NCBI GenBank assembly: GCA_032358165.1
Contig: JAALGY010000038.1
Coordinates: 186,001-250,000 of the forward strand
DNA length: 64,000 nucleotides
Direction of reading: 5' to 3'
DNA from: Diplosphaera chodatii
Lineage: Eukaryota > Chlorophyta > Trebouxiophyceae > Prasiolales > Stichococcaceae
Positions 13,501 through 64,000 of the stretch are shown in pieces; the stretch's first letter is position 1, and each line of letters opens with the position of its first letter. The notes under the pieces are model-generated. The model was not told the DNA's origin and made no database searches. It was given only the letters and a program-made list of their open reading frames with translations. The position numbers were made by a program, and so were the translations under genes.

Positions 13501-16240
13501 CACCTACGAGCGACTAGTACGGTAAGCAATAGCAGCATGCCGACCTACTGAGCCCTTGCTGTAGGCCCACCTGCAATGGGGTGCCGATCAGGTCCTTGCC
13601 CTTCACCAGCGCCAGCAGCTCTGGCGCAGAATCCTTGTCCAGCTTGGCAGCACCCTCATCTGCCGGCTGATGCCCATTGGCTGCTGGGGCGCCTTCCGCC
13701 GGCAGGCCATACTGCAGGCACAGAGACTCCGTCAGGAGTTGGACTGACAGGATGGCCTGCAGTCCTCCTGGCCATTGGCAAAAGACGGCCCATGACCCGC
13801 TGTGAATGCAGAGTCCAGATGCCAGCTGACTGGCGACATACCTGCCAGAGTAGGTTGCGGGCTGACCTCGCCGCCATGACGTACACGTCGCCATTCGGGC
13901 CCCTGTATGCGCCGTACTCGCCCTCGGGCAGCACCCAGCAGTTCGTCTGGCCATACATGGTCTCCGGGCGCAGCGTGGCTGCCATCAGGTAGACGTCCCC
14001 CTTGCCCTGCGGATGGGACAGCAGTGTCAGCACTGCACTGCTGGCGCTTGTTCAATGGCGCGCCAGGCTCCTCGCCTGCAGCACGATGGTCAGCACACAA
14101 TTGCCGGCAACGTTGCTGCATACGGACGTGCTTTGGCGTCAACATAGCCGCAACCTGCTTCTGCAATAGGCCACAACACAGTCGGCAGGTGCATCTTGCG
14201 CCGCACCTCGAGCGCCGCCAGGGCCGGCGGCAGCGCGAGCGCCTTCATCTTGACGAGGGTGTACTCCTGCGGCTTGGCGCCCTCCCCGCTCGCGCGGTCG
14301 TGGTCCGCGCACGGTTGGCCGTCCAGCGGTGAGTACACCGACAGCCTGCCAGTGGTGACTATGAGCGTGTTGGTCAGGGGCGAGCGACTCTGGCGGCGCA
14401 GTTTGCCACCCTCACAGCAGGAGCGCCTCCGGCAGGCTGCTTGTGTCATGCTGGGCATGGCTGACGCGAGGCGGACGTGCTTCGGTGACGGGCCAAGCCG
14501 CATGCGCTGCTGCTGGGGCATGTGCAGGCCTCAATCATACCGCATAGCAGGAAAGCTTGCCTCGTTGCAACATCTTGCATTACAACATGTAGGCTTCCAG
14601 CAGTTTATCGGGGGGAAACATCAGACTGAGGCGTGCAACGCGCACCGCACGGCTTTGATGACGCGACCCTGCCGCCGGAGCACCTCGAACTGCCAGCGGA
14701 TGAATGCGTCGTAGAACGGGTTCTCGTCGGTGGTGATGAACGTGCGGCGGTCATCAACGCCAGCACCCATCGCGAGGATGTCACGCATGCCCTTGGGCGG
14801 AAAGTACCGCAGCCAGTGCCTCTCGTCCCTGCACCACAGCAACAAGACTGCCCGGCTTGCACCGGCTGCCTACCCGACGATCTAGAGAAGCACACCTTGA
14901 ATCTTGGACCATGTCCTCGTTGCCCACCTGAAGCGCTCAATCTCGCTGGCTGGTATGTCGAGGTCCAGCATGATCTGCCACTGGTACTTGGCGCCGCCGG
15001 TCTTCGCTGCCGCCTTGCTCTTCTTGGAGGCAAACTTGGTGGCTGGCCCCTGCGCTGCCGCCACCTCCTCCTTCACCTCCTGCAAAGACACATGCGATCC
15101 CTCCTGCAGTCGCGAATGCCTTCTGCAATCAGTGCACCATGCTCGGAGTCCGCATGCCGCCTAGCCATGCTGGTCAGTGTTCCTGCGCAGAGCGGCATCG
15201 CACAGGCTGCAACATGGCCTTTACACGGAAGCAGTTGTGCTGACCTCTGCCTCGGGCATGTCAGTATCTTCGCCTGGGACCCTGCCCGTCCTGGTGTACT
15301 CCTCCACCAAAGCAGTGAAGTCGTCCAGGCTGCCGGCCCGCGCGATCTCGTGCTTGAGCTTGTCGGCGCAGGCCTGTATGTCACGGTGCCGCCGGTGGGG
15401 TTGTTTGTGAGGTGTTCTGAGAGGTGTTCTGTATCAACCACCTGCTGCAGACGTGGGTGTCAATACCACCCTCACCTTGATGGGCATGCCGGTGCAGTGG
15501 AACCCCTGGGGGAACAGCACTTGCTTGCCCACCAGCTTGTGGTACCCGGACGCAAACACCAGCTGCAGCAACAGAGTTGGGTCGGTTATCTATTCTCATG
15601 GTGCACCTGTGCTGCGCCGCCCACACACTCCTGGAATGGTACTGACACTGCACGCAGCAGCGTTGTCTAACTGTGCGTACCTTCGACAGCGAAAAGGCAT
15701 GCCCAAGGTGCAGCAGGCCGTTCATGTAGGGGTACGGAAATGTGCCAAAGAACTTCTCGTCAGGCGCCCCTTTTCCTGTGCAGCGTACAGTAGGAAGGCT
15801 TGATAGCAGGCTCCAGCTGGCCAACGTGGCACAGTGGCGCAAGATGCTCGGCTGATGTAAGGTGAGCCGCCAATTCTGTAGTTGTGTAGATCATGTGCAC
15901 GCAGCGGTGCCAGTGCCGAAGCATGGGCAGACAGCATGGCAAAGAGCATGCTCAGGCCCAGATCGGTCCTCACCTTCTGCGGGTGCGTCCACATGGAAGG
16001 CCTTGTGCGCAGCCCACTTCTGCTGCGCTTTGCTCTGCATTCCCAGCAGCTCGTCACGCCGCGCATGGCTCGACGGCTCTGGTACAACCTGCGATCATCA
16101 ACCTTCAACGCTTGCGCCAGCCATGCGCACTGTTCCACAACGGAGGACCTTTGATGAGCGTACACGGAGTGCCTTCCAACCATGTTGCATGAGCAGCGCG
16201 AGCGGTGCTAACTGACCTTGGCTGCTGGGCCATCAGCCAT
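7513..16240 (-). CDS. LARS1: Leucyl-tRNA synthetase, cytosolic (eukaryotic) type
   Basis: The enzyme charges tRNA-Leu with leucine in the cytosol. The start ATG at 16240-16238 gives MADGPAAK. Early exons are 16217-16240, 15974-16088, 15681-15775, 15476-15562, 15245-15373 and 14928-15079, all in phase. Hallmarks in order are the class I HIGH signature as HLGH in exon 3, FHCTGMPIK, the editing domain with [14 protein letters not shown] (about 13.9 kb) and [16 protein letters not shown] (about 13.3-12.9 kb), [11 protein letters not shown] (about 11.7 kb), [18 protein letters not shown] (about 11.4 kb), [12 protein letters not shown] and KMSKSTG (about 10.7 kb), then the C-terminal extension ending [11 protein letters not shown] with TGA at 7515-7513. 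I count about 29 exons and about 1,090 aa, the usual eukaryotic length. The GEP-x-IF ending resembles plant enzymes. No missing catalytic motif was noticed. Confidence 0.93.
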
Positions 16241-16769
16241 GGCTGAATCTCAGGCACCAGATAGTTGGCGCTGTGCTGCAAGCTGGACTAGCTCAATGAT
16301 AATCAGATGCACTAGCTCACAAATCAGCGACAGTCGATCGTAATTAACTGATCTTGCATGTCATTGAGATGGCTGCAGAATGATAATCATGGAAACCATG
16401 CACGTAGTGCGCGTGTGACCGTTCCCAGACAGCTCAAAGATGCTGTATTTGTATTGAACTTGGATATGCCACAGTCTACCGCAAGACAATTTTGTAGAGT
16501 TCGGGGTGCCTGCAGCTGGAAGCTCGGCCATAGTCCCTGTAGAACTATACTCCCTGCCGCCGTCTGTATGCAAATCGTGGGACAGCCTTTGCTGTCACAT
16601 GTGCTTGTGTGCAGGGCACAGCTCCCTGGAGCAACGTCCGGTTGCAATTATTGTCACGTTGTTTGCAACGTGGTCTGTTCATCCACATCCTATACTGCTG
16701 CCTGCTGTAACCATGGCCACGGACTTCTGACATATATCGGACATATGAGCGGCGAACTGAGGGAATTCT
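16241..16769. other. Intergenic, LARS promoter side and SDR 3' end
   Basis: About 530 bases lie between two minus-strand genes. The interval should contain the LARS promoter and 5' UTR and the SDR 3' UTR. It is less GC-rich than the exons. No gene or clear motif is visible. Confidence 0.5.
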
Positions 16770-48985: not shown

Positions 48986-51900
48986 ATGTCGGCACCTCGC
49001 CCCCTCACGATGCAGCTGCTGTTTGCCGTGGCCAGCGTCGCCTGCTGCGCCGTCGCCGCCTCTGCAGGCGCGACCATGCTGAAGTCATAATCGAGGTCCT
49101 CGAACGCACAGAAACATGAGTGGTCAGGGGCTGTGCAAGTTGCTCGCAAGCCTTGCAGCACAGCATGGTGGCTAGTCACTTCACTGTACCGAAGTGCATG
49201 CATGCATGAAGTCAGCTTATTGAGGGCTGCTGACACGCTCGCATGTCTCTCTCGTGCGGCATTTGCGGTCGTAACTATGTGCACCACCTGCCAGACGTGC
49301 TGCCGTGCTGCTGGCCAGCAGCGGCAGTGGCTGCGCCCTCATCCGCAGTCCCATGCAATGCATGCAAATTGTCATGGTGTCGCATCACATCCCAGACACT
49401 CGGAAGCCTGGCTTGATATATACAATCAAGTGTAGCCATGTACTTTGTATGTTGCATGCATACAGCACTGTATTTGTATACTGCAGGGGAGCTGAGGGAC
49501 CCACCAATGTTGGTCGCGCCAGCTGTCATCCCAGCCGGCAGCATGTTTGGCAGCGGGCGGCAGATACTGCAGGTGAGTGGACAGCACCCCTGCGATGCGA
49601 TCTAGGCCTGATCACGCGCATCATTTGAGCCACCCCCAGACACATTCAGGCAGCACCCCGCACTGTGAGTGGCCAGATTAGGTCATCAAGTGGCGATATA
49701 CATGCATGCAATCAGTACTACTGTGCCCCCTCTGGTTGATATGGTCGCTGTTGCTGCCAGCAGGCTAGCTCATCGTCTGCTGGAGCCGCCGCCGCCGCTT
49801 CTGCTGCCACCGCAGCAGCGGGTGCCGCTTCGGCGGCTGTCGCTGCTGCTGCCACCACTGGTGACCCTTTGTCACGAGAGCCTGCCTTTTCATTGTTATG
49901 ACGCCTGCCTGCAGACCAAGTCTGTGCAAGGGTTGAAAAACAAACAAGGTTGAAACACAAACAAAGCACAACCGAGGTGCAGAACAGCCGTCAGGGTGCT
50001 GCACTGACACAAAGCAGAGCACCCTGCCACTCCTGAGCCGCGTTGCGCTTGTGTCGTCAGGGACTAGCGGCGCAGCAGCTGCATCTGCAAGCGCCAGTGC
50101 GGCAGGCAAGGCTGCGACATCCGCCGCCGCGGCTGCAGCGTCTGCTGGTCAGGTATGTCCATATACATATATCTCGCATCTTTGAGTGCTGGTTCAGAAG
50201 CAAGATGACAGATCATCGTTGTTGTCATCCCCAGACAATCAGCGTGCTGTGCACACATCAACATCTTTGTGACAGCGTCACCAAGCCAGCGGATGGGACT
50301 GGTGACTTGCACATGCGACTACAACCGTGACCAGCAGAAGTGCAGACGGCAGCAGTGCATCTGGTGTGTGCAGGGCGCGGCGGCAGCCTCGGCAGCCGCC
50401 GCCGGCAGCGCGGCAAGCGCCGCCGCCTCTGCAGTGTCTGCGGGGTCCGCCGCCAGCGCCGCCAGCGCCGCCGCGACCTCCGCCAACAACGCCGGCTGCG
50501 CCGCCAGCGCCGCCGCCGCCGCGGCCGGCGGCTCGTCGGCAGCCGCCGCCAGCGCTGCTGCTGCCACTGTGTCCACCATCGCCGCGACCGCAGCGACGTC
50601 TGCTGCCGCAGCCACCGGCACCGCATCGGCGGCCGCTGCATCCGCCACCGCCTCTTCTGTGGCCGTCGTGACAGCCGCGGCGGCTGCAGGTGATGACGAT
50701 CCTGCCTGCAAAGTGGCTGTGCGCATGGCTGTACCAACAGCATAGTGTGTAGCTCCTGACCTGTCAGCAGCGTCGCAGGAGGATGGCAGCATGCGCTTCG
50801 TGTATAAAACAAACTGCAGCTTCTGGCCTCAAGATGCGCCCAAGTAGGACGCTGGCTGCATGCAGGCGCTTCTGCTGTGGGCGCATCTGCCGCCGCCAGT
50901 GCCGCGAGCTCTGTCGCGGGCGCCGCTTCCGCCGCTGCCTCCGCTTCCGCCAGTGGCAGCACTTCAGCTGCAGCGTCCGCCGCCGCATCCGCCACAACTG
51001 GTGCCGCCGCGGCCGCCAGCGCATCTGCATCTGCAAGCGGCGCCTCTGCATCCGCATCGGCTGCGGCCGGCGCTTCCGCTGCTTCCGCCGTCGCCGCTGG
51101 GGCGGCGGCCTCTGCCGCTGCCAGCGCCTCAGGTACGTAGCTCTTGCATCTCCCAACTCTTCGATGCTTCTGCCTCAATTCGATTGTGTAGCATGCCTGC
51201 CTTCATCCCCACTGGTAGTGTGCTCATTGAAGTTACGCATCAGCCACAGCAGCAGAACAAACACCAATTTCTGCTGTGCTGCACAGCTGGTGGGGCGGCG
51301 GCCTCGTCCGCCGCCGCCGCTGCCTCCGCCGTCGGTGGCGCCACATCCGCCGTTGCCGCTTCAGCCGCTGCAGCTGGGGCGGGCGCATCTGCCTCTGCTG
51401 CGGCATCGGCTGGTGCTGGCGCCTCTGCAAGCGCCTCTGCTGGTGAGACAATGCGATGTACATTTCTGAACGCCTGTTTTACAAAGCGCGTGCAGTGCCT
51501 GGCCTGTCTGCACATGCCCAGCACCACAGTGCAGGGTGCAACTGGCCGACAGGGTGTTTGAGGCTGCACAACGCTCTGGGTCGCATTGCTTTCTTGGGGC
51601 GTCGCATGCTGACAGCAGTATGGCTGACGTTTGGGCTGTCCTCCGGCTGCAGCGGCGAGCGGCAACGGTGCGAGCGCCTCTGCGGCCGCTGCCTCCAGCG
51701 CATCTGCGGTGCGCTATGCATAGCGGCCAGCGTGTTCGATATCTCCCCCGGCCATACGTATGGCACTTCTGCACCCAGAACTCGGCACTTTAGGGGTCAG
51801 AGTGTGTCTGCACGGCTGGCCAAGGTGGCTGAACAGCCCATTGTCAGCAGCAGGCGCTGCTTCCTGAGCGGCGCTGATTTTTGCGTGTGTCTGCTTTCGA

Positions 51901-52504
51901 CAGGCATCGTCCTCCGCTGCCGCCGCGGCGTCTGCCGGCGCCACGCTGCAGGTGCGCTGGGTTTCAAACCCCATCATTTACTCCGACCAGGCACTGAGGG
52001 CTGCATTGACGCATTTATGTGCGGCTTGTGAACTGCATGCCCACGTCTGGCCGAACGAGTGCCCATCTGACGGTCGGCACTTCGGCAGGTCGTCACAGCA
52101 GGGTCGCAGCACTTGCAATGCTAGGTGTCAGCAGCCTGCTCCTGCACATGCATCGCAGGGCAGCATTGCGGCTGGCGCCGCAGCCGGCTCTGCAGCCGGC
52201 ACTGGAAACCCCGCGCCGCCCATCCCCACCGCCGCAATCCCGGTCTGTAAGCCGTCTGCCGCACTTGATTCGTACTGCACACGAAGATGCCTGTGCAGCA
52301 TGTGAGTACGCTAGCTTGCACACACCTGCTTATTTGCATCGGTAGAGGGCAGATGGAAATTAGCCCCACTGTGCCCGCATGACGATTGCGTGAAGGCCGT
52401 CAGACCCGCAGCCACGTGCTTTTATGCAGGCTGGGGCGCCCGTGCCTGCGCTCCCGGCGCAGCCGGCCAATGCGCAGCCCGCAGGGACATACGGCCGGCG
52501 CTGA
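48986..52504 (+). CDS. Secreted alanine/serine-rich modular protein (complete, 452 aa)
   Basis: Eleven exons keep one frame: 48986-49067, 49487-49572, 49764-49860, 50061-50152, 50374-50689, 50866-51132, 51287-51442, 51653-51708, 51904-51951, 52159-52242 and 52430-52504 (TGA). Exon 1 is a signal peptide (LTMQLLFAVASVACCAVA). Exon 2 is ordinary sequence (DPPMLVAPAVIPAGSMFG). Exons 3-9 are almost wholly Ala, Ser, Gly and Thr (AASAAASAVSAGS, SASASASGASASAS). Exons 10-11 switch to proline (NPAPPIPTAAIP, PVPALPAQPANAQPAG) and end TYGRR. Intron phases are only 0 or 1. Exon 1 appears to use a weak GC donor (GCGCGA). No catalytic domain is present. It resembles silk-like or cell-wall structural proteins in composition only. 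A paralogue-like gene follows at 55677. A matrix role is inference. Confidence 0.72.
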
Positions 52505-52941
52505 TTTCCAGCGGCTGTGCAGTGAAACCGCAACAGCGCTGTGTAGAGCTGCGGCTGGCCGTCTGCTGATGAACAGGGGCTCTAAAACCCTTGAGCGACC
52601 CCAAGCTGACCTTATTGAACCTTGGAACACCTCCAGTATTGCTCTATTGGCCAGAACCAGGCACTGTACAGTGTCAGCATGAGCTGCGTGCTGTAGTTGC
52701 CTATTTTGTTCGTTTGTGCACATGCTGAATGATGTAGTAACACCAATGAACGTTCCCCACCAGCAAGATCGCCTGCGACTGCCCTGTTAACCAGTTGCAG
52801 ATGCCAGTACTGCACAGGCATGGCAACGCAATCCCATCTCTGACAATCAATGCTGTCTGAACTGTTGGCACGTGTGCACAGATACAATATCAGCCATGAT
52901 GTTTCTGTGGGCCAGCAAGTCCGCCGTCTTCAATGCCGCGG
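52505..52941. other. Intergenic between convergent genes
   Basis: About 440 bases lie between the stops of the Ala-rich gene (plus) and the glyoxalase-like gene (minus). Presumed 3' UTRs only; nothing else is visible. Confidence 0.5.
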
Positions 52942-54448
52942 TCATGTCAGCACGATGGTCTTCCCCTCGGCCGTCTTGATGCCCACGCTCCTGAGCGCCG
53001 GCGGCCCCTCAGCCCACCTGCGAGGCGGCAGCACCGAATTCGAGCTTCCAGGGCCCAAACACCTGAGTCAACGTCCAGTCAAAGGCTGTGCACCACTGAG
53101 AGCAGACTTGCGCGAGTGCGGCTGCGCAATCCTGCGTCCCGAGGCTGCAGCGCAGTGCGCACCTGAGCGGCAGGTCCTCCCAACCGGGCCCGATCCAGTC
53201 CGCCATGGCCGCCTTGTCGCCCGCCACCTCCACGTACTCGATGCCCGCCGGCGACACCCGGTGGTCCGCCGGGAACTGCGCGGCATGCCGCAGCGATGAC
53301 TCAGCAGACGGGCTCAACGTGAAGGCTCTGGTGTGCTGGTGATCTGGCTGTCAACGTTTCAGCGCAATGTAGGACAGGGCTGTCGCCTGATGCCGTACTG
53401 AGCATGGCCTTGTTTTGACAGGGTCAGAGCTGAGCCTGCAAGCGTTCGCAGCGAAGGTGAAGCGATGTATTGAGGCCCAGTGAGGGACAAGAACCTTGTC
53501 TGGCCGCAGCGACGGGTCGTCCCAGGTGATGAAGAAGGGCTTGGGCGCGCGCCCCGGCTCGTCGAACTTGCTCATGGTGGCCACCCGCCACGTCAGCTTG
53601 CTGCCGTCGGGCCGCAGCCGCACCATGTGCCCCAGCATGTGGTCCAACCTGAGAATGCCAACACGGTTTGTGGCCCAAGCGCCATGGCATGCGCAGCAGA
53701 GCTGCCCTGCACAGCCGTGAGCTGGCGGGGCAGAACATGCGACTTGTTCATGCTATTGCATGTGCCAAGGGCTCATCAAGCACGAGCTGAAACCGTCTGT
53801 GCACTCGCCGGCATCCTGAAGTCAGCACATATCGCGTCATGCGCACCGCTTGGACACGTCCGCGGCGTCCTCTGTTGTCTGCACGCAGAAGGTCATCAGC
53901 GTCCAGGGCTTGTCCTTGATGGGCGTCGCCGCAATGAACCTGCAGAACAGGGCGCATGCGGTTCTTAGCGTTCAGGACCTTCCACCCAAACAGAACACGG
54001 ACAAGAGTCTGTGACAGGGCTGGCATGCAGGCATGACACCCAGCAGCACGGAAACTATGCTCACTTGCCCCAGTCGCACGACTGCGCTGCCTCCGGGTCC
54101 CACACCGCCGCGATCTCGATGTAGCCCGCGCCCAGCGGGATGATGTAGTTTTCCGTGCCCCACCCACCCTGCAGCGTGGTGAACATCTGGCCATCAACCA
54201 GTGGTGTAACAGTGCATCCCAGCGATCTCCGCTGCTCATATGCCATCTGCTGCTCGCAACATGGATGACAGAACGAGACGCACAATCTGAAAGATCCCTG
54301 CAGATCTTTCATGGTGCCTCGCCTGGTGCTTGCCGCCGTGGTACGCGGCGAGGCCGTACTCGTTGTAGAAGTGGTCCACAGCCGCCTTCAAGTCCTGAGC
54401 GCCGATGATGATGTGGTCAATGCGCGGCAGCGCCTCCGGCTCCGCCAT
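52942..54448 (-). CDS. Glyoxalase-like (VOC superfamily) protein, 241 aa
   Basis: Six exons fit exactly in phase: 54323-54448, 54065-54168, 53847-53939, 53495-53648, 53163-53335 and 52942-53017 (TGA at 52944-52942). The N-terminus reads RIDHIIIGAQDLKAAVDHF, the usual opening of a VOC beta-alpha-beta unit, then HGGKHQ joined to GGWGTENYIIPLGAGYIEI, matching the GGxH...GTxN signature of the 'glyoxalase-like' domain (PF13468 type). Later blocks are LMTFCVQTTEDAADV, LRPDGSKLTWRVATM, FFITWDDPSLRPD and GIEYVEVAGDKAAM. No organelle signal is evident. The substrate is unknown; VOC enzymes act on small metal-bound substrates such as hemithioacetals. Intron 1 needs a GC donor to preserve the signature. 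The gene sits between two Ala-rich secreted protein genes on the other strand, with no obvious functional link. Confidence 0.85.
54169..54322 (-). other. GC-AG intron 1 of the glyoxalase-like gene
   Basis: Exon 1 ends CACCAG and the intron begins GCGAGG. Using it joins HGGKHQ to GGWGTEN with no frame change and restores the conserved signature. The nearest GT donor would insert about 13 extra residues. Confidence 0.65.
54288..54311. repeat. Short perfect hairpin next to the GC donor
   Basis: Arms TGAAAGATC and GATCTTTCA (9 bases each, exactly complementary) are separated by 6 bases. On the minus strand the stem starts about a dozen bases inside intron 1, directly downstream of its GC donor. 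Confidence 0.7.
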
Positions 54449-55676
54449 CACGCCGGCTGCAGGCTCTTTGCACGCAGCCCTGCATGCACATAGGAGTGCA
54501 GAGGCATTTGAATATCCTCATGCATGCACAGGAGCTGCCCCACAGGGCAGGGACCATCGTGCATGCAGGGGTACATCAGCCTGCACGTGAACACGCAGAC
54601 GACATGGTTTTGAGGGTCCAGAAATTCTCACGTCACATGAGGAAGCCTGTGAGGAAGCCATCACAGACAAGTATGCTGGCCGCATGTTCCACATCTTCAC
54701 TTGCAGCAGAGACATGCAAGTGGCACGTGCTCATGCACATGCTCTGCTGCGCGTGCTTGTTTGTGGGCCGGACTGTCACTCAAGCGCAATCTTCAACATC
54801 GTGAGGCCTACCAGATGCGTTGCCAACGGTGGTCCCGACAAGAGGCGGCTATCCCGGCTCGCAGATCACCAGTCTAAGAACACTGCGCTGTTGTCACACA
54901 GCGGTACTGATGCAGACGATGGCACAGGACTGCTGTTGTGAGCTGCAGATCGCACAAGTGTCTGGCAGCAACTGCAGGGGTGCAGGCGCCGCAGGCGAAA
55001 TTGGCCTCAAGGAATGGGGCTCCTGCACGTGGACAGCGTGGACACTTTGGGACCAAGCCTGCTGCAGCTTTGGTAGTCCGCCTGCCCGCCCCAGGAAAAC
55101 TGGGCGGACCACCGCCACGGGCGGTCAAGGTTACAAGGGGCGGCCTTGCAGCACCAACGCTGCTGGGGCTTCGGCGCAACAGCAGCGTGCATCTCCCAGC
55201 TTCAGGCGACTGTTTGCCCATCGCTGCATGCTAAGCCTTCTGCTTGCAAAGACTACCTCCATGCGCATGGGGAAAACTGCGGCTCGGCACACATGGCGTG
55301 TAATTTCACAGTCAAGCGTTGCGAATAGAAAGTCCTACTGCTCCAAAACCAATGCATCGACTTGATTGGCCGTCCCAATGGCACGCGAAGCTGGCCTGCG
55401 TGCGTGATCATGACGTCAGATCTACATGGCAGCATTTACAACAAAGTTGATGGCCGGCCAGGCGCAGCCAAAGAAGTCTCGTTCGCGCAGGTGACAGTCT
55501 TGGTGCATCGTTCACAACACCATGAACAGTCAGCATCTTTGGAAGGGCACTTGAGCGGGGAAATGCAGCACTTCTGAGTACTTGAGGCACTTTCAGCACA
55601 CTGGAGTATTGAGCATCGAGCACCAACAGCACCTCGGCACTGCCAGAACTTCGGTGTCACGCATTGCAATATAAAG
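54449..55676. other. Intergenic, divergent promoter region
   Basis: About 1.2 kb separates the glyoxalase-like start (minus) from the second Ala-rich gene (plus) and should hold both promoters. Both strands are open for about 100 codons at 54.87-55.23 kb without family resemblance. The ATATAAAG box at 55670-55677 runs into the start ATG of the plus gene, so it cannot be its TATA box unless translation starts downstream. Confidence 0.4.
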
Positions 55677-58600
55677 ATGCTGTGGCGCCTGATGATGACT
55701 GTCTGCCTTCTGCTGCTGCGGCATGCCACCGCCGCTGGCTTCTCGGCGGCTGCACCTACCGACGGTATATGCATCGTCCTCCGGAATGCAAGTGACATCG
55801 GATCAACATATGCACCTGAGTGTGACCTGCTTGAGAGTTGCTTGCATACATGGCCTGATGGCCACCCCTGCTAGAAGGTGACGCCTGGTATAGGCATCGT
55901 TGCCAAAACAGCCGAGCCTGCTGCTGTCAAGACCAATGTCGACGGCCTCGACTGGCCAGCATGCATGCGAAGACTGCTGCTGTGGCTGTAAACACATTCC
56001 TACAACAGCTCCTGACTGCGGGCGGTCTCAATGCAGGGGCTGTGCAGCCCTCGGGTGGCGTTCCGCAGCAGCTGCGGCACGCGCTCACTGATGTGGCAGC
56101 GCAGGCAGATGCCAGGACGCGGGTCCTGCTACAGCAGGCTCCTGGTAGCCCACTTTCTGCTGGCCAGGTGTGCAGCAGGCTATCCTGTCCTGTCCGCCTG
56201 CCTGTTACAAGCGTCATCAGAACTACAGCATGTGCCATGTCATGCACTCCGATGGACCATGTTGCGACGTGCCACCACAGAGAATGCAGCCTGATACTAG
56301 ATATCCGACCAGCCAGCACCTGCATTGGGCGTTGCAGGTAGCAGCTACCGACGCTGCTGGAGCCGCATCTGCAGCAGCATCCGCGGCGGCCAGCGCCACA
56401 CTCACAGCAGGTAGCACCCTGGACGGCTCTGTTCTGCTTCGTCCATTGCTTGTGATCATTCCATTAATGCGCTGGCGATACAATCATCTAGGCCAAAAGC
56501 TGCTCCTGGTCGCCAAATGATGCAAGTGTCAATTTGCGAGGTCTGAGCGGACACTTGGATTCAATTGATTTCAGAGCTTTTTCCAGTGGTCTGATATGTG
56601 CACAGCACCTGCTGCATCGAACAGATCTGATCGTTTATGATAGCTGATTGTGTGAACCGCGATCACACTCATGATGCAACAATTGCAACTTTCCTGTGAC
56701 AGGTACCCCTGCAGCCTCAGATGCGGCTGCCACCATCCGCAGCCTGAGCGCGACGGCAAATCAGGCGGCGACCGCTGCCAATGATACTGGCGAGGTCAGC
56801 TTCTATCTCAACCTGCATTGCCCTGACAAGATCCAGCAGTGTCACTACACGAAGACAGAGACTGCACAGAAGAGTGCTGTTTCCCAAAGCACGTCGTCTG
56901 GCATGATACTACGCTGATGGGACCTTGAAGTCGCGGTGTGCATGCAGGCTGCGGTTGCAGCGGCCGCTGAGGCAACAGCCAACGCTGTCGACGCCCTGGC
57001 CACCTCGCTCCTGACCGGCCTGCGGCCGCAGCTGCTGGCGCAGCTGACGGCTGCGATACGTGCTGCCAGCGCTGCTGCAGGTGTTGTGGCCCCAATGCAC
57101 GTCCACACAATCAGATGCATGATCAATGTTGCTGCAAATAATGGCAACAAGCGGTGTGTGAGCCACTTGATTGGCTTTGGAGCCTGGGTCAACTCCCAGG
57201 CCTTGCTGCACCTCGGGCCATCTTCTGTCAAGGTGGCCTGTGGCGAACCTCGTCTAGCGGGTTTGACACACTGCTCTATAATGTCGTGAAAGGAAGCACT
57301 GGTTGTCCCACAGACGGCATTTGACTTCGTTGTCAACCTGTTGCACCTCACGACCGCAGGTGCAGCGGCGGCCGCGAATGGGCAGGGCGCCGCGGGATCC
57401 GCCGCTGCCGCTGCCAACACCGCCGTCAGCATCTCACTGTCTGTTGCAATTGCGGCATCAGCTGCTGTTGGTAAGCTCCACCATTGCCACAATGGTGACT
57501 TCGCTGCTTGGCCGAGGTTTCTGTCTGCCAACGCTTCAGGTGACGCATCTTGACACTGTGCCAGGATGTTGTACGAGGTCACAGGCATGTATATGTCCAG
57601 CGGTGCAAGGTGAACAATTCCTGCTGGCGCACAGGTACGCCTGCTGTTCCCGCGGCTGCTGCCGCCACCACCGTTGCGGCTGATGTGGCGTCCGCTGCGG
57701 CGGCCAATGCCACCCGCCAGGGCGCGACTGCTACTGGCCGTGCCGCGTCTGCTGCTGCCGCCTCTGCAGCCCTGGCTGCCAACGCGTCACTGTCGGGTAG
57801 GGGCCAATCTAGCTAATGATGAAGTGTGTGTCTTCCCTCACATCGTGTGCACATAAGTGATGGTTGGCTGCCATTTGAGCACACAAGGCTGTTGTAGTCA
57901 CTGCTGTAATCTTGCCCAGCATGTTGAGGTCCAATTATAAACACAGCCTCAACTTCAGATCTCAAATGCAGTATGGTAGCGCTTGTGAGTCTCGACATGA
58001 CAAGTCCAGGCAGAGACTGAGCAGAGTATTTACATGTAGGTGATACATCCAGCGCTAGCCTTGCTGCTGCTGGAGCGGTGACGAATGCTGCTGCAACTGC
58101 TGCAGCATCTGCCAAGGTGTGTAGTCAAGTCGGGTTGAACCTGTAGACAGTAACAATGCTGCAGCTGCATTCAGGGCAACAAACTCCCGTGGAGACTGCC
58201 ATCACTATCATCAATGATCAGACATATTCGTGTCGAAGCATCTCCCAGAACCCTCAGCGAAGGAGGCAGCTCTGTGTGGCATTGCAGGCCGCTGGGGCAA
58301 ACGACACCACTGCAGCGGCGGCCGCCGCAGCATCCGCATCAGCTGCTGCCGCCGCTGCAGCCGCAGCCGCCGCTACAGGCGTAACAGGTGTGACAACGAA
58401 CCGATGCCAAGCTTGAGCATGCTGAAGCCAGATGCCTTCTCTACTTTCTCGAATCTGTGCTGGATGTCCCTGCTGCTGACAGATTCTGGCAACATGCGCG
58501 CATATGCAGTGGGTGGCAACGCCAGCGACTCTGCTTCTGCGACGTCTGCCGCCGTTGCTGGCGCAACCAGTGTGGTGGCCACGTTTGCTAGTGGCGCGAA

Positions 58601-61600
58601 TGCCACCAGTGCCGCCGCGGCTGCATCTACCGCAGCTGCTGCCGCAGATGCGGCCAGCTCCGCTGCAGCCGCCAACAACAGCATGGCGGCCACATTGGCT
58701 GCTGGCGTCGCCAATCAAGCGGTGCGGCGCAACTGTATGTGCTTCTCAGATGACTTGTGAACTTGTGGGCACGGGCAGCAGGGTATGTAAATCGTGGATG
58801 AGCAGCTGCTCTTTGATGTTGGCTGCATGTGCAGCCAGCTGCTCAACTGCCTGTTCACCCCGGTTGCCTTGTGGCCCCTCACACTGCTGGCTTGTACTTG
58901 CCCAGCCACCCGCGGGCCAGTGCAGTGTGCATGACCCTGCAAACTCACCTGCAGTGTGATGCCATTTGCAGTGCAAAGCTTCTTGCAGTAGTTGCACCAC
59001 GAAGATAGTTGAGAAAATCTATGCCTCACAGAACTGAAGATCCTTGCAGCAGGTCTTAATACTGTGGTCCTGCTTGGCACCACCCTAGCGTACTTTGCAC
59101 ATGAGCAAGTGTGCATGTGCAGGCGAACGCTGCAGGCAGCGCAGCAGCCTCCGCCGGCGCGCCACTGCAGGGCGCGACATCCTCCGGCGTCGCAAATGGC
59201 GCCGCTGCCACCGCCTCTGCAGTTGCTGGCCTGCCGCCACCACCGCCGCCGCCGCCAAGTGCGCTCCCCCTGCACTGACTGCACGCCTCAGGCTGTGACA
59301 CAGAAGGGCAGTCAACCAGGATAGAGGCAGCATTGCGCACCGCTGACCATCAGTAACTCAGTGCGCCATATTGCACGTATTGTAGCTTTAAGTTGTGTGC
59401 TCGCATGCCATCAGGACGCCTGTCGACTGATGATACAGGTCCGCCCCCGCCGCCGCCTCCGCCCCCTCCGCCACCGCCGCCATTGCCGTCGCCATCACCC
59501 CCGCCCCCACCACCACGACCCAGCCCAACACCAGCCCCTTCCGCCATACCCACCCCGCCAACTGCGGCACCAACCTACGCCCCAACATACGCGCCGTTCA
59601 CCGCTGCCCCGACCGCGCTGCCGGCGGCAGCCCCCAGCTATGCGCCCACATCCCCCCCTGCAGCAGTCATCAGGAGGCCGCCGCCCCCGCCGCCGGTCCC
59701 ACCGCCGTCCGTGAACATCTCGCAGGCCGCAGTCGGTGCCGCAGCAGCGGGCGTCGGAGGCGCCGCAGCTATCCCCGCTGCAGCTCGCAACCTTGGTGAG
59801 ATAGCCTGGCACCTTGCAACAGGCACAGGAGATGCATTGTGCAATGCCATCAAGTGGCATGGTGTAAGCAGTGACAGTCAGATTGTTGTCGAGAAGCGTC
59901 CACTGCAGCGGGAAACAAGTTGGTGTGGTGCATACCATCTGTAGGCAGGCCCCTGGCCGCACGAGCCGCTGACGAGCTGAACATCACCGCAGCCAACGTT
60001 CAGCGCTCCGTGAACACGGCGGTTGCGGCAGGCCAGGTGTGCAGCGTCAAGCAGTCGGCAAGAGATGCCCGCTGGTACCGCACTCACACATACAGAGGGC
60101 TGTCACGCTTGACTTGTGCATGTGCAGTCATATGCAACGCAACCACTTGTTGCTTCTGCTCACCATGATAGATATCAAAGATGTCGCATAACCAATGTGC
60201 TGGTCCTCCAGACCCCGGTGGCGCTGGCGGCCGACTCCGTCGTTGACTTCCTGCACGGCGCTGCCGCGGCCATCGCCGCCGGCAACGCCACTGCCGCCGC
60301 TGAGCTGGCGGGCATGGCGGCCCTGGACGGCGTCGTTGCCACGTCACTTGCGGCAGCAAGCCAGCCTGTTGCAGTGAGCCATCTGTCAGTAGCTGTCCGT
60401 CGTACTGAATAGTACATTGACAGATGTGCTGGATGCACCTTGTCTTAATGCTGCCTGTTGTCGGCTGAGCATACACTGTCTGTGCTGCCTGCGTGCAGAC
60501 CCAGGACCCCAACGCCATCTCAGCTGCCGGCAGTTCGGCGGGCGCGCTGATCGCTGCGACTGGCGCCATCGCTGCTGCAACGTCGACAGGCAAGCCGCAA
60601 GTCTTTTGACGGCACACAATTATTCACCCTCGGCAGCTTCCGCACAGAGTGCCCGAGCCATGACAGCTGCACGCGAACACCTTGATGCTGCAGTTGCATT
60701 GGCACGGCCCAGACAGCAGGGTTTTTTGCACAGCCAAACTTTCACACGACTCGCCCAGCGCCTCCAGCACTAGCCACCCGTCTGAGCAAGCACCTGAGAG
60801 CCTGTGCGCTGCTGACATCTGGCTGCAGGGACGTTGGGCGCTGCAGGGCTGGCGGACGTGGTCAGGGCATTGGCGACGGGGGTGCGCTCTGGCGCGCAGC
60901 TCATCCGGCCATCGCTCGGCGGCAACGTCACCACAGAAGTCGTGGATGCGGCAGACGCCGCCGATGCTGCCGCCGACGCTTCTGCAACTGGTGAACGGTC
61001 ACAAAATGAGTTTGTGACACGGATGTAGGTCGTACGACGATGCTGTGCTCCAGCACTTCACTTGCCAAGCTCAAGCTGTTAGGTAGCATGCTGTTGAGGC
61101 ATCAGACGCAACACTTGGTTTCGAGCAGCTGCCTAGCAGGTGCTGCTCTTGTTGCAAGTGAAGGGTCTGATGCTGCTGTGAAGGGGAGCACCACTTGTGG
61201 CGATGCATGTAGGTTGCCCGAATGGTGATGGTGCTGCCAGACACACTCCATGGTGGATGCCCCCATGCTCTGCTGCCTTGCCTCACCCCGCCCTTGGTGT
61301 TGCCCCTGCTGATCATGTTCAAAGCCCCGAAGCTTTCACGCCTGCTGCGCAGGAGATTGCGGCGCTGCGGCGGCTGCAGCGAGCCGCGCGCTGCTGGCGG
61401 CCGTGACGGCGGCTCGGGGCTCCGCCGCCGCCGCCGGCGCAGGGCCCGCGGCGCAGGCCGCAGCCGCCGCAGCGACAGCGGCCAGCGCTGCTGCGGTTGT
61501 TGCCGCCTCGGCCTCCTGCGTCAACACCACCAGTGCGCATTGAGGACTTGAAAACTACCAGTCCGGCAGGGCACCTGTACTGTCTGCATAGTGTCATCAG

Positions 61601-64000
61601 TCGGCTGGATCTTGACGGTGATGGCTGACACTCGCAGCCATCAGAGGCCTTGATCCAGGCAGACTGATGACTGGCCAGTCCAAATACGCTCACTATGTGA
61701 TTAGTGCTGTCCACAGCAACGGGCAGTCCGTAAAGCTACCAGCCAGTCATCTTGACTTCAGCCCTGACAGGCTCTTGCTGTAAGTGCCACAGCACCACGG
61801 TGCCACAGCCACACAATAGCTGCCAGTGGTCGTACTCCCCACCCCGCCAGCACCACCTGACAGCTGTCGATAGCATGCTCCTCATGTGGCACCACAGCGT
61901 CATGCAGGACAGTCAGCCAGCTTCAGAGCTGACTTGCCACCGTAAGTCTGGATGCAAGGTACACATGCATGATGGTGTGATCGTGTGTGCAGTGTGCGGT
62001 ACGATCACGGCCGGCCGCATGGCCAGCATCGCCCGGGCGGCAGCCCATGACGCCGCCGCAGCCGGAGCTCCAGCCGCCGCCACTGCCACTTCTGACGCTG
62101 CGGCTGCTGCCATCGCCGCCGTGGCGGCCGCGCAGTCGGGCGATGCTGGGCGTGCCGCTAACCTGACCGCTACAGCTCTGGCCGCGGTGCGTCAGCCTCT
62201 CAAACATGTCAACATATAGCAGTTTCAAAACCCTAAACGTTGGTGGGCAGAGCCCAGCAAGCGCTCACTCGAGCTGCTGTGTGCTGCTGTCCATTAGCAA
62301 CAAATGCCTTGCACACGCGCAGACGGGATGCCAGTGGCAGTGCCTGGTCTGACTCTGATTGTTGACTTCTACCACCTGTTCCTCGCTGCTGCGGTGTCCT
62401 GCAGCGTTGGGGAGAGCTGAACGCTCTTCCGCTCAGCTCGCCCTTGCATCTGCCTCCGCTGCAGCTAGCTGCCCTGTGTCACCTGACGTTGTGGACAACA
62501 TGCTTCTGATACCGCTCCAGACTGATGCTGCTCTCAGACGGCGCGACCGCTTAGCACATTGGCATCATAACTTAGGCAGCTTGACACCAGACGCTGTTGC
62601 ACATGCATAGCGTGCTGCTGTCTGCTGGGCAGCCAAGTCTGCACTGTCTTCCGCATTGCAGGCCCTGGCGGCGTCTCGTGCAACCGCTGCGGCGGGCGCC
62701 AGCCTGCAAGCGGCGCTCGCGGCTGCCGTGGCACTCACCGGCTCGTCTGCCGCCTGCCCTGGTGGTGAGTTTGGTGTTGAACGGCAACAGTGCACATAAC
62801 CGTGTATGCCAACACAGAATGCACCGAAGCAGCTTCATGTGCAGCGGATGCTCCAGCACTGCTGCTGTTCCTGGCAGGTGGCCTGCCGCCGGCTGCACCG
62901 CCGGTGCCGCCTTCGCCACCGCTGCTCCCGCTGCTGTCGCCACCGACGCCTTTATCGCTGCCGCCGCCGCCACCCTACTACCACCCACCCACCAAGGCCC
63001 CAACATACGCCACAGCGCTGCCCACGGCCCCACCTGCAGCACCACTGACGGCAGCGCCATCAGCAGTAGCTATCCCAACCTCAGCCCCCAGCTATGCTAC
63101 CCTCGCCCCCACCGCAGCCGTCCCAACCCCAGTTCCCTCCTATGCTACCCTCGCGCCAACGCCTGTGCCTACCGCTTACACACGTGAGCCCACAGCGGTG
63201 CCCACCACTGTTCCCACCCCAGCCCCCTCCTATGCAGTCCCCACACCCAGCCACACGCCGCCGCCCACGGCAGCTTCGACGGCGCCGCCAACAGCAGCCC
63301 CAGCTGCGGTGCCAACGACCAACCTTTTTGCGCCACCAGCTCAGCCGACGGTAGGCATCCAGCTGTTTGGGCCCCCTGAAATGTGTTCAGCACATGTGCC
63401 TCTGTCTGACAAGCTGTCCACACGCATGCAGCTTGCCTGCAGCAAACTTTGCCAGGAAATGCGAAAGTCTGTGTGACGAGCAGACAGCTGAAGTTGCTGC
63501 ATGTTAGCGCCACAGGCGGCCCCGTCCGCAGCGCCAACAGCCGCCCCAGCGGCAGCACCCAGTTACCACCCCTTCGCGCCCGTACCGACCCCCAGCTACA
63601 CTGCAGTCCCCACAGGAGTCCCCACTGCGGCGCCCAGCCTCCTCCCAGCCCCCACGCGCGCTCCCACCAAGCCGCCGGCTGCAGCACCAACCGCTGCGCC
63701 GGCCGCGCCGCCGATGCCGCCGCCGCCACGCAAGCGTCCCACTCGGCACCCCCCGCCCCCTCCGCCACCGCCGCCGCCCCCGCCACGGAGACCAGTCCGC
63801 ATCCCCACAGCGGCGCCGTCCAAGTCCCCCACAGCAGCACCCACAGCCCAGCCCACCACTACGCATGCTGCAATGCACCCACCTACGCCAGCACCGCCGG
63901 CCGAGGTGCCGCCCGCAGCGCCGGTTCTCGTCACGACGGCGCCTTCAGGGCTGACGCTGGGGACATATGCCCCCACCTATGGCCCCACACCAGCCGTGCC
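55677..64000 (+). CDS. Giant secreted alanine-rich / proline-rich modular protein (3' end outside window)
   Basis: Twenty-one exons keep one frame: 55677-55819, 55960-56167, 56338-56410, 56703-56794, 56948-57080, 57360-57470, 57635-57796, 58040-58116, 58288-58387, 58510-58721, 59123-59258, 59439-59795, 59945-60036, 60212-60373, 60499-60589, 60829-60990, 61353-61532, 61993-62186, 62662-62764, 62878-63350 and 63516 onward (about 1,248 codons). Exon 1 is a signal peptide ([15 protein letters not shown]). Exons 3-11 and 13-19 are Ala-rich helix-like modules of about 25-70 residues, many with N-glycosylation sequons (ANATRQ, GANATSA, GNATAAA). Exons 11-12 and 20-21 hold proline runs and APTYAPTYAP, APSYATLAPT and TAAPT repeats, typical targets for hydroxyproline glycosylation. 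The exon 1-2 junction is the least certain. It looks like a cell wall or matrix glycoprotein related in plan to the 48986-52504 gene; the role is inference. Confidence 0.72.
59439..59795 (+). repeat. Proline-run and APTYAP repeat block 1
   Basis: Within one exon the protein has a run of prolines, then [17 protein letters not shown], then APTYAPTYAPF and APSYAPTSPP, then more PPPP. The matching DNA is CCG/CCC-rich low complexity. It divides two groups of Ala-rich exons. Confidence 0.8.
60590..60828 (+). other. GC-AG intron in the giant Ala-rich gene
   Basis: The exon ends ACGTCGACAG at 60589 and the intron starts GCAAGC, a close GC-donor match. It ends GGCTGCAG at 60828. The join keeps the Ala-rich frame with a phase 1 to phase 1 junction. 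Confidence 0.65.
62878..63350 (+). repeat. Proline-rich and PSYATLAPT repeat block 2
   Basis: One exon encodes PPVPPSPP, LPPPPPYYHPP, KAPTYATALPTAP and two copies of PSYATLAPT, followed by TAVPTTVPTPAP and TAAPAAVPTT. Tyr recurs in an AP-T/S-Y-A setting about every 15-30 residues. Confidence 0.8.

Follow-up and report, generated by a model that had tools for sequence, protein, structure and literature searches.

A Tandem Cluster of Alanine-Rich Genes in the Green Alga Diplosphaera chodatii: Candidate Secreted Structural Glycoproteins of the Cell Wall

Pherophorins are secreted proteins of volvocine algae that occur in large families and, in passages of PMC9818292, are described as dumbbells with heads on either side of a proline-rich rod of very variable length. 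The walls of trebouxiophyte green algae are described by their polysaccharides and hydrocarbons in passages of PMC10762512, which name no wall protein family; these passages also report that the walls of Coccomyxa and Trebouxia fold and unfold on drying. In Chlamydomonas, nuclear magnetic resonance of a wall extract found alanine to be the commonest residue, at 13%, according to passages of PMC10837150, which also cite an older report of alanine-rich, hydroxyproline-containing walls. The words hydroxyproline, extensin, and alanine do not occur in PMC11126685, on lichen algae. Here, we describe four alanine-rich genes, G1, G2, G3, and G4, that stand in a row on the plus strand of contig JAALGY010000038.1 (C32) of the trebouxiophyte Diplosphaera chodatii (assembly GCA_032358165.1). 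The stretch under study, called the window, comprises 64,000 nucleotides (C32:186001-250000), and positions past 64000 continue its numbering. The window and 49 kb downstream of it were compared with the matching 70 kb of contig C12, and the genome searched amounts to 85.57 Mb in 55 contigs. The cluster is best read as encoding secreted glycoproteins with a structural role, the cell wall or extracellular matrix being their most likely site, a reading to which we assign a probability of about 0.6.

Gene Models and Coding Evidence

The four genes are G1 (48986-52504; 11 exons, 452 amino acids, without an internal stop), G2 (55677-65995; 24 exons, 1,708 amino acids), G3 (66824-71778; 13 exons, 708 amino acids), and G4 (72515-75006; 8 exons, 419 amino acids, or 418 with an alternative exon 3 donor). 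Exon ends were picked by eye from reading frame and splice motif and were then checked against the second genome copy on C12. The first-pass annotation of the window had closed the first gene at 452 amino acids over 11 exons, which is exact. Its unbroken run of 21 exons for the second gene also stands, with three further exons beyond the window; 1,203 whole codons are counted up to 64000, against its figure of about 1,248. The signal peptides that it placed at the start of both genes correspond to hydrophobic, signal-like N-termini, a judgement made by eye.

Matching exons are present on C12, as found by protein searches of the genome, and a DNA comparison over window positions 40000-100000 shows the two regions to be colinear from before G1 to beyond G4. 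Window positions 15381-16300 and 40002-64000 (on to about 86834) correspond to C12:887816-974627 at about 68-96% DNA identity by segment. The neighbours match too, with 77% DNA identity over the stretch encoding leucyl-tRNA synthetase (by eye); the gene that separates G1 from G2 shows 72-88%. C12 holds two copies each of G3 (G3' and G3'') and of G4 (G4' and G4''). The tandem expansion proposed earlier is borne out by four genes in a row on C32 and their repetition on C12. The genome holds two diverged copies of the region, which may represent a hybrid, an ancient duplication, or strongly differing haplotypes.

Splice dinucleotides (GT or GC donor and AG acceptor on the plus strand) are kept in both copies in all 52 compared introns, 10/10 in G1', 23/23 in G2', 12/12 in G3', and 7/7 in G4''. 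G3'' and G4' lie outside this count, and one mapped acceptor in G3'' is not AG. Every one of the 52 introns of G1-G4 is in phase 0 or 1. Six donors in the C32 models are GC, two of which, in G3, are GT on C12. The four GC-AG introns with a GC donor in both copies are located at window positions 49068 and 60590 and at positions 2327 and 3900 of L001.

The ratio of nonsynonymous to synonymous substitution (dN/dS) was obtained from Nei-Gojobori counts on MAFFT pairs of C32 and C12 copies. Third codon positions vary most between the genome copies, with changes at positions 1, 2, and 3 of 0.065, 0.029, and 0.381 in G1. Whole-gene dN/dS is 0.079 for G1, 0.304 for G2, 0.27-0.28 for G3, and 0.22-0.24 for G4 (0.215 for G4''), and the other two plus-strand registers give 1.4 to 8.2. 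Because GC is its own reverse complement, an alanine-rich frame has a mirror image on the minus strand, and dN/dS is poor at choosing between strands; the mirror minus frame gives 0.126 (G1), 0.338 (G2), 0.30 (G3), and 0.23-0.25 (G4). The plus strand is settled instead by stops in the mirror frame together with the conserved splice sites. In G1, in G2, in G3 against G3', and in G4 against G4'', the gene frame contains no stop other than the terminator, while in the same comparisons stops fall in 2, 30, 19, and 6 codon pairs of the mirror frame; the gene-frame comparisons with G3'' and G4' show one extra stop each. A minus-strand reading is thereby ruled out. A splice-aware exon-chain search returned 863 for the plus strand against 284 for the minus strand, figures that are only indicative since its scoring favoured proline, serine, and threonine and its chains were too permissive. 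By sequence comparison, G1-G4 are shown to be real spliced genes under purifying selection.

Alanine-Rich Modules, Proline-Rich Rods, and Their Relationships

Alanine makes up 50% of G1 (with 19% serine and 10% glycine), 43% of G4, and 28-29% of G2 and G3. Proline reaches 16-21% in G2 and G3, the only two proteins with proline-rich rods, and 0-5% in the alanine-rich modules. The earlier description of modular, alanine-rich proteins is borne out, as is that of proline-rich segments in the rods of G2 and G3; G1 is almost without a rod. Proline, alanine, serine, and threonine together account for 77% of G1, 68% of G2, and 59% each of G3 and G4. Dipeptides of the type [ASTVG]P number 167 in G2, 44 in G3, five in G1, and four in G4, counted over whole proteins, and SPPP motifs seven in G2, two in G3, and none in G1 or G4. 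The rod of G2 contains six 36-amino-acid repeats with TYAPTYAPT or TYAPTYGPT (11 TYAPT and two TYGPT in G2); on C12, about two repeats are seen by eye. Beyond the rods, Gly-Gly-Lys repeats close G3, and G2 terminates with SGGKRSGGK. Sequons of the type N-x-S/T are above chance in G2 (13 from 28 asparagines), G3 (6 from 11), and G4 (8 from 16), with p at most 0.0015 in whole-protein shuffles and at most 0.0025 in local shuffles; G1 has no such sequon.

Ten module pairs were compared by profiles, each against 40 locally shuffled controls. Two pairs stand clear of them. For G1 and the first half of G2 (G2a), the probability is 91.6 and the score 41, where no control exceeds 7.2; for G3 and the second half of G2 (G2b), the probability is 98.6 and the score 81, where no control exceeds 6.8. 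These alignments run along the module over 315 and 322 columns, respectively. In the other eight pairs, including all with G4, the real score was not above the controls, 5 to 30 of 40 of which reached it; G3-G4 came nearest, at 5/40. The profiles thus show two homologous module classes at the sequence level, type I (G1 and G2a) and type II (G2b and G3), and G2 is a two-headed chimera joining one module of each class. G4 is alanine-rich and gives no sequence match to either type. Four cysteines mark type II, at 728, 781, 787, and 882 in G2 and at 293, 346, 362, and 457 in G3, and all four are also present in G3'.

An exon of exactly 92 nucleotides running from phase 1 to phase 0 recurs as G1 exon 4, G2 exons 4 and 13, and G3 exon 4. 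G4 exon 3 agrees with these in phase and measures 92 or 89 nucleotides by donor choice, the 92-nucleotide form being used here. Under the models used, which had fixed exon ends before exon lengths were compared, these five are the only 92-nucleotide exons among 56, and the phase order after them is alike. This shared exon and the like phase order hint at a common ancestor of the modules.

The modules are more constrained than the rods: dN/dS is 0.135 (type I) and 0.129 (type II) in the modules of G2 against 0.463 in its rod exons 20-21, and 0.161 in the alanine domain of G3 against 0.336 in its rod and tail, both measured against G3'. Neither polar nor LIVMF residues show significant periodicity in any of the five modules, and of the five alanine scans only that of G1 gives a marginal signal (p 0.017), where the scanned periods are longest. 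The longest alanine run in the modules is 6-11 residues. The first-pass annotation had proposed a silk-like or glycoprotein matrix family; a silk-like nature is not borne out, and the modules are two conserved domain classes plus G4. A tandem repeat of one unit within the modules is ruled out by their full-length alignments and by the absent periodicity, apart from the marginal alanine signal of G1; the only tandem unit is the 36-amino-acid repeat of the G2 rod.

Comparison with Known Families and Alternative Explanations

Database searches returned no described family for the modules. A Pfam scan covered G1, G4, both modules of G2 (type I and type II), and G3 minus its signal exon, leaving most of the G2 rods and the G2 tail outside; it gave no match at E ≤ 1, and hence no pherophorin domain in the parts scanned. 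A genome-wide profile search with PF12499 found nothing, a weak result as its controls also gave no signal. The three-row type II profile had no match in the PDB at E ≤ 0.1, and protein database searches with G3 and with the G4 pair gave no match at E ≤ 0.001 among the 7,992 and 7,984 best-sharing candidates, both sets being capped. In the literature, the titles and abstracts listed contained no such alanine-rich algal wall or matrix family, subscription journals being mostly outside the scope of that search.

Like pherophorins, the proteins are apparently secreted and form a family, and G2 shares the head-rod-head layout, but the heads are alanine-rich and have no pherophorin (DUF3707) domain in the parts scanned with Pfam. 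The two-head layout fits G2; G3 has one head and a rod, and G1 and G4 are without a real rod. The contrast with pherophorins drawn in the first-pass annotation consequently survives for the heads and is narrower for the layout. Extensins and other hydroxyproline-rich glycoproteins resemble G2 and G3 in the proline runs and tyrosine-bearing rod motifs; unlike extensins, the proteins have few SPPP motifs and no repeated Ser-Hyp3-5 blocks, and their best conserved sequence is nearly free of proline. Arabinogalactan proteins are recognized by a content of proline, alanine, serine, and threonine of at least half of the residues, and the 59-77% found in 4/4 proteins resembles them. Unlike in arabinogalactan proteins, however, the modules are nearly proline-free, asparagine sequons are enriched in G2-G4, and glycomodules are not clustered over the protein body, although the rods of G2 and G3 would qualify; by eye, no hydrophobic C-terminal anchor signal is seen in G1-G3, and the alanine-rich end of G4 is ambiguous. 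Silk fibroins and spidroins share the dominance of alanine, serine, and glycine, strongest in G1, but the modules have no evident repeat unit and their exact sequence is conserved. For the pherophorins, extensins, arabinogalactan proteins, and silks alike, one or more of the features tested speak against membership. Takenaka and Kawasaki reportedly described wall proteins of Pythium in 1994 that are rich in alanine and contain hydroxyproline, to go by the title as cited in PMC10837150, and these are alike in composition by that description only. Pythium is an oomycete, so relatedness to G1-G4 is unlikely.

The signal-like starts, the sequons, and the rods favour a wall glycoprotein of pherophorin type, and the best reading is that of a pherophorin-like layout with heads apparently unrelated to pherophorin heads. 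Several observations weigh against it. Among the capped sets of candidates scored (G3 and G4; type I was checked in Pfam only), no relative was found outside the alga's own genome, so that no function can be borrowed. G1 lacks both a sequon and, nearly, a rod, and G4 has no rod. The evidence for helices is AlphaFold2 of G1 exon 5, where five models had a mean predicted local distance difference test score (pLDDT) of 41 to 63 and the best, at a low-confidence 63, shows two long helices. Weak splice donors occur at a few sites (G3 exon 7, gcccgt), and for G4 exon 3 either of two donors is admissible. Some short exons of 25 to 48 codons each look unconstrained, with dN/dS of 1.31 for exon 1 and 1.01 for exon 4 of G2, and of 1.29, 0.94, and 0.69 for exons 1, 7, and 2 of G3 against G3''. 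On C12, exon 3 of the G2 copy is longer by two bases (C12:928329-928403), which may mean that the copy is broken, that a splice site has shifted, or that the assembly is in error; G4' (C12:945032-947481), unlike G4'', has no read-through in the mapped frame; and the extra stop of G3'' falls in exon 2, which aligns poorly. Given these defects, not every copy need work.

Other functions for secreted, alanine-rich proteins have to be set beside the wall reading. Adhesion or recognition proteins, such as sexual agglutinins or adhesins for colony or fungus contact, would present heads on glycosylated rods at a variable surface, as the layout of G2, the differing copy number between genome copies, and the change from six rod repeats on C32 to about two on C12 would allow. 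The constrained part, however, is the heads and not the rods, and with a pooled module dN/dS of 0.08-0.16 in G1, G2, and G3 no diversifying selection is seen over the modules, leaving such a role unlikely. Secreted stress protectants, that is, ice-binding or desiccation-protecting alanine-rich helices that act outside the cell and not as a wall framework, are rather improbable: the possible helices are decorated with threonine, serine, and asparagine, the neighbouring gene has its closest named relatives in Coccomyxa and Apatococcus, and Coccomyxa and Trebouxia walls fold and unfold with drying (PMC10762512), but the missing polar and LIVMF periodicity argues against them, and the rods of G2 and G3, like their basic tails, would be left unexplained.

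An arabinogalactan-like reading, in which composition is decisive and glycans sit on proline, serine, and threonine, can draw on the residue content and the [ASTVG]P dipeptides of G2 given above. It is quite doubtful, since the most constrained modules, at their low proline content, can carry few hydroxyproline-linked glycans and by eye no hydrophobic C-terminal anchor signal was seen in G1-G3. That GC-rich, low-complexity DNA is open merely by chance would account for alanine-rich frames mirrored on the minus strand; as a main explanation it is refuted by the conserved splice dinucleotides, the synonymous change at third positions, and two module homologies far above shuffled controls, and it is scarcely credible. 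A wall or matrix function of the cluster remains the preferred reading.

Features of the Locus and Proposed Role in the Wall

The exons of G1 and G2 are collected in Table 1. In the C12 copy of G1 exon 4 (C12:921787-922095; window 50108), 217 extra bases that start with GTATCG and end with ACAG look like an intron present in one copy only. Elsewhere in the genome, C21:2981312-2981575 (L044) holds a stretch like the proline-rich rod of G2 with the TYAPTYAPT motif (E 5e-6), and C18:1665709-1666347 on the minus strand holds an alanine-rich stretch with 52% identity to G1 (E 2e-11) and three stops inside, which is possibly a distant relative of G1 or alike in composition only. Between G1 and G2, in both genome copies, lies a minus-strand glyoxalase-like gene (window 52950-54450; PF13468 in its best matches). 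Among its 294 candidates 22 match, the best being three proteins on contigs of about 1 kb (89, 74, and 72%), followed by Coccomyxa subellipsoidea (64%) and Apatococcus lobatus (63%), a pattern that indicates Trebouxiophyceae.

Table 1. Exons, modules, and rods of G1 and G2 in window numbering.
Feature	Position	Strand	Description
G1 exon 1	48986..49067	+	signal-like peptide; donor GC (gcgcga), GC in the C12 copy too
G1 exon 2	49487..49572	+	terminal RQILQ; R-x-[LI]-L-Q recurs in exon 2 of both G2 and G4
G1 exon 3	49764..49860	+	Ala-rich
G1 exon 4	50061..50152	+	92 nucleotides, phase 1 to 0, within type I module
G1 exon 5	50374..50689	+	Ala-rich; 105 amino acids folded with AlphaFold2
G1 exon 6	50866..51132	+	Ala-rich
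G1 exon 7	51287..51442	+	Ala-rich
G1 exon 8	51653..51708	+	Ala-rich
G1 exon 9	51904..51951	+	Ala-rich
G1 exon 10	52159..52242	+	becomes Pro-containing (NPAPPIPTAAIP)
G1 exon 11	52430..52504	+	short tail containing Pro, stop
G2 exon 1	55677..55764	+	signal-like peptide
G2 exon 2	56037..56167	+	RVLLQQ motif
G2 exons 3-11	56338..59258	+	type I Ala-rich module; pooled dN/dS 0.135
G2 exons 3-7	56338-56410, 56703-56794, 56948-57080, 57360-57470, 57635-57796	+	
G2 exons 8-11	58040-58116, 58288-58387, 58510-58721, 59123-59258	+	
G2 exon 12	59439..59795	+	first Pro-rich rod, continuing into start of type II module
G2 exons 13-19	59945..62764	+	type II Ala-rich module, four Cys; pooled dN/dS 0.129
G2 exons 13-16	59945-60036, 60212-60373, 60499-60589, 60829-60990	+	
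G2 exons 17-19	61356-61532, 61993-62186, 62662-62764	+	
G2 exon 20	62878..63350	+	second Pro-rich rod, Tyr motifs PTY/PSY
G2 exon 21	63516..65121 (window part to 64000)	+	long rod; six 36-amino-acid repeats past window end
G2 exons 22-24	end at 65995, outside window	+	tail SGGKRSGGK

In the proposed wall framework, the modules would be mainly alpha-helical heads that associate with one another or with wall polymers, and the rods would act as hydroxylated, O-glycosylated spacers. Tyrosine forms covalent cross-links in extensins, and the tyrosine-containing motifs of the rods might do the same. The basic Gly-Lys tails of G2 and G3 may bind acidic polysaccharide, and G2, standing between G1-like and G3-like neighbours, would link both kinds of head. 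A further proposal, which we put forward tentatively and think somewhat doubtful, is that type I, type II, and G4 derive from one ancestor and are founding members of an undescribed superfamily of alanine-rich, conserved extracellular domains, from which trebouxiophytes would have built a wall framework independently of the volvocine pherophorins, with a head-rod-head layout reached by convergence.

A defined wall protein family in trebouxiophytes would offer a way to approach the flexibility of the wall and, in relatives that form lichens, contact at the surface. The cluster also shows that sequence that is nearly half alanine, and usually masked as low complexity, can form a family of domains that is both under constraint and diversified, and that may escape standard searches.

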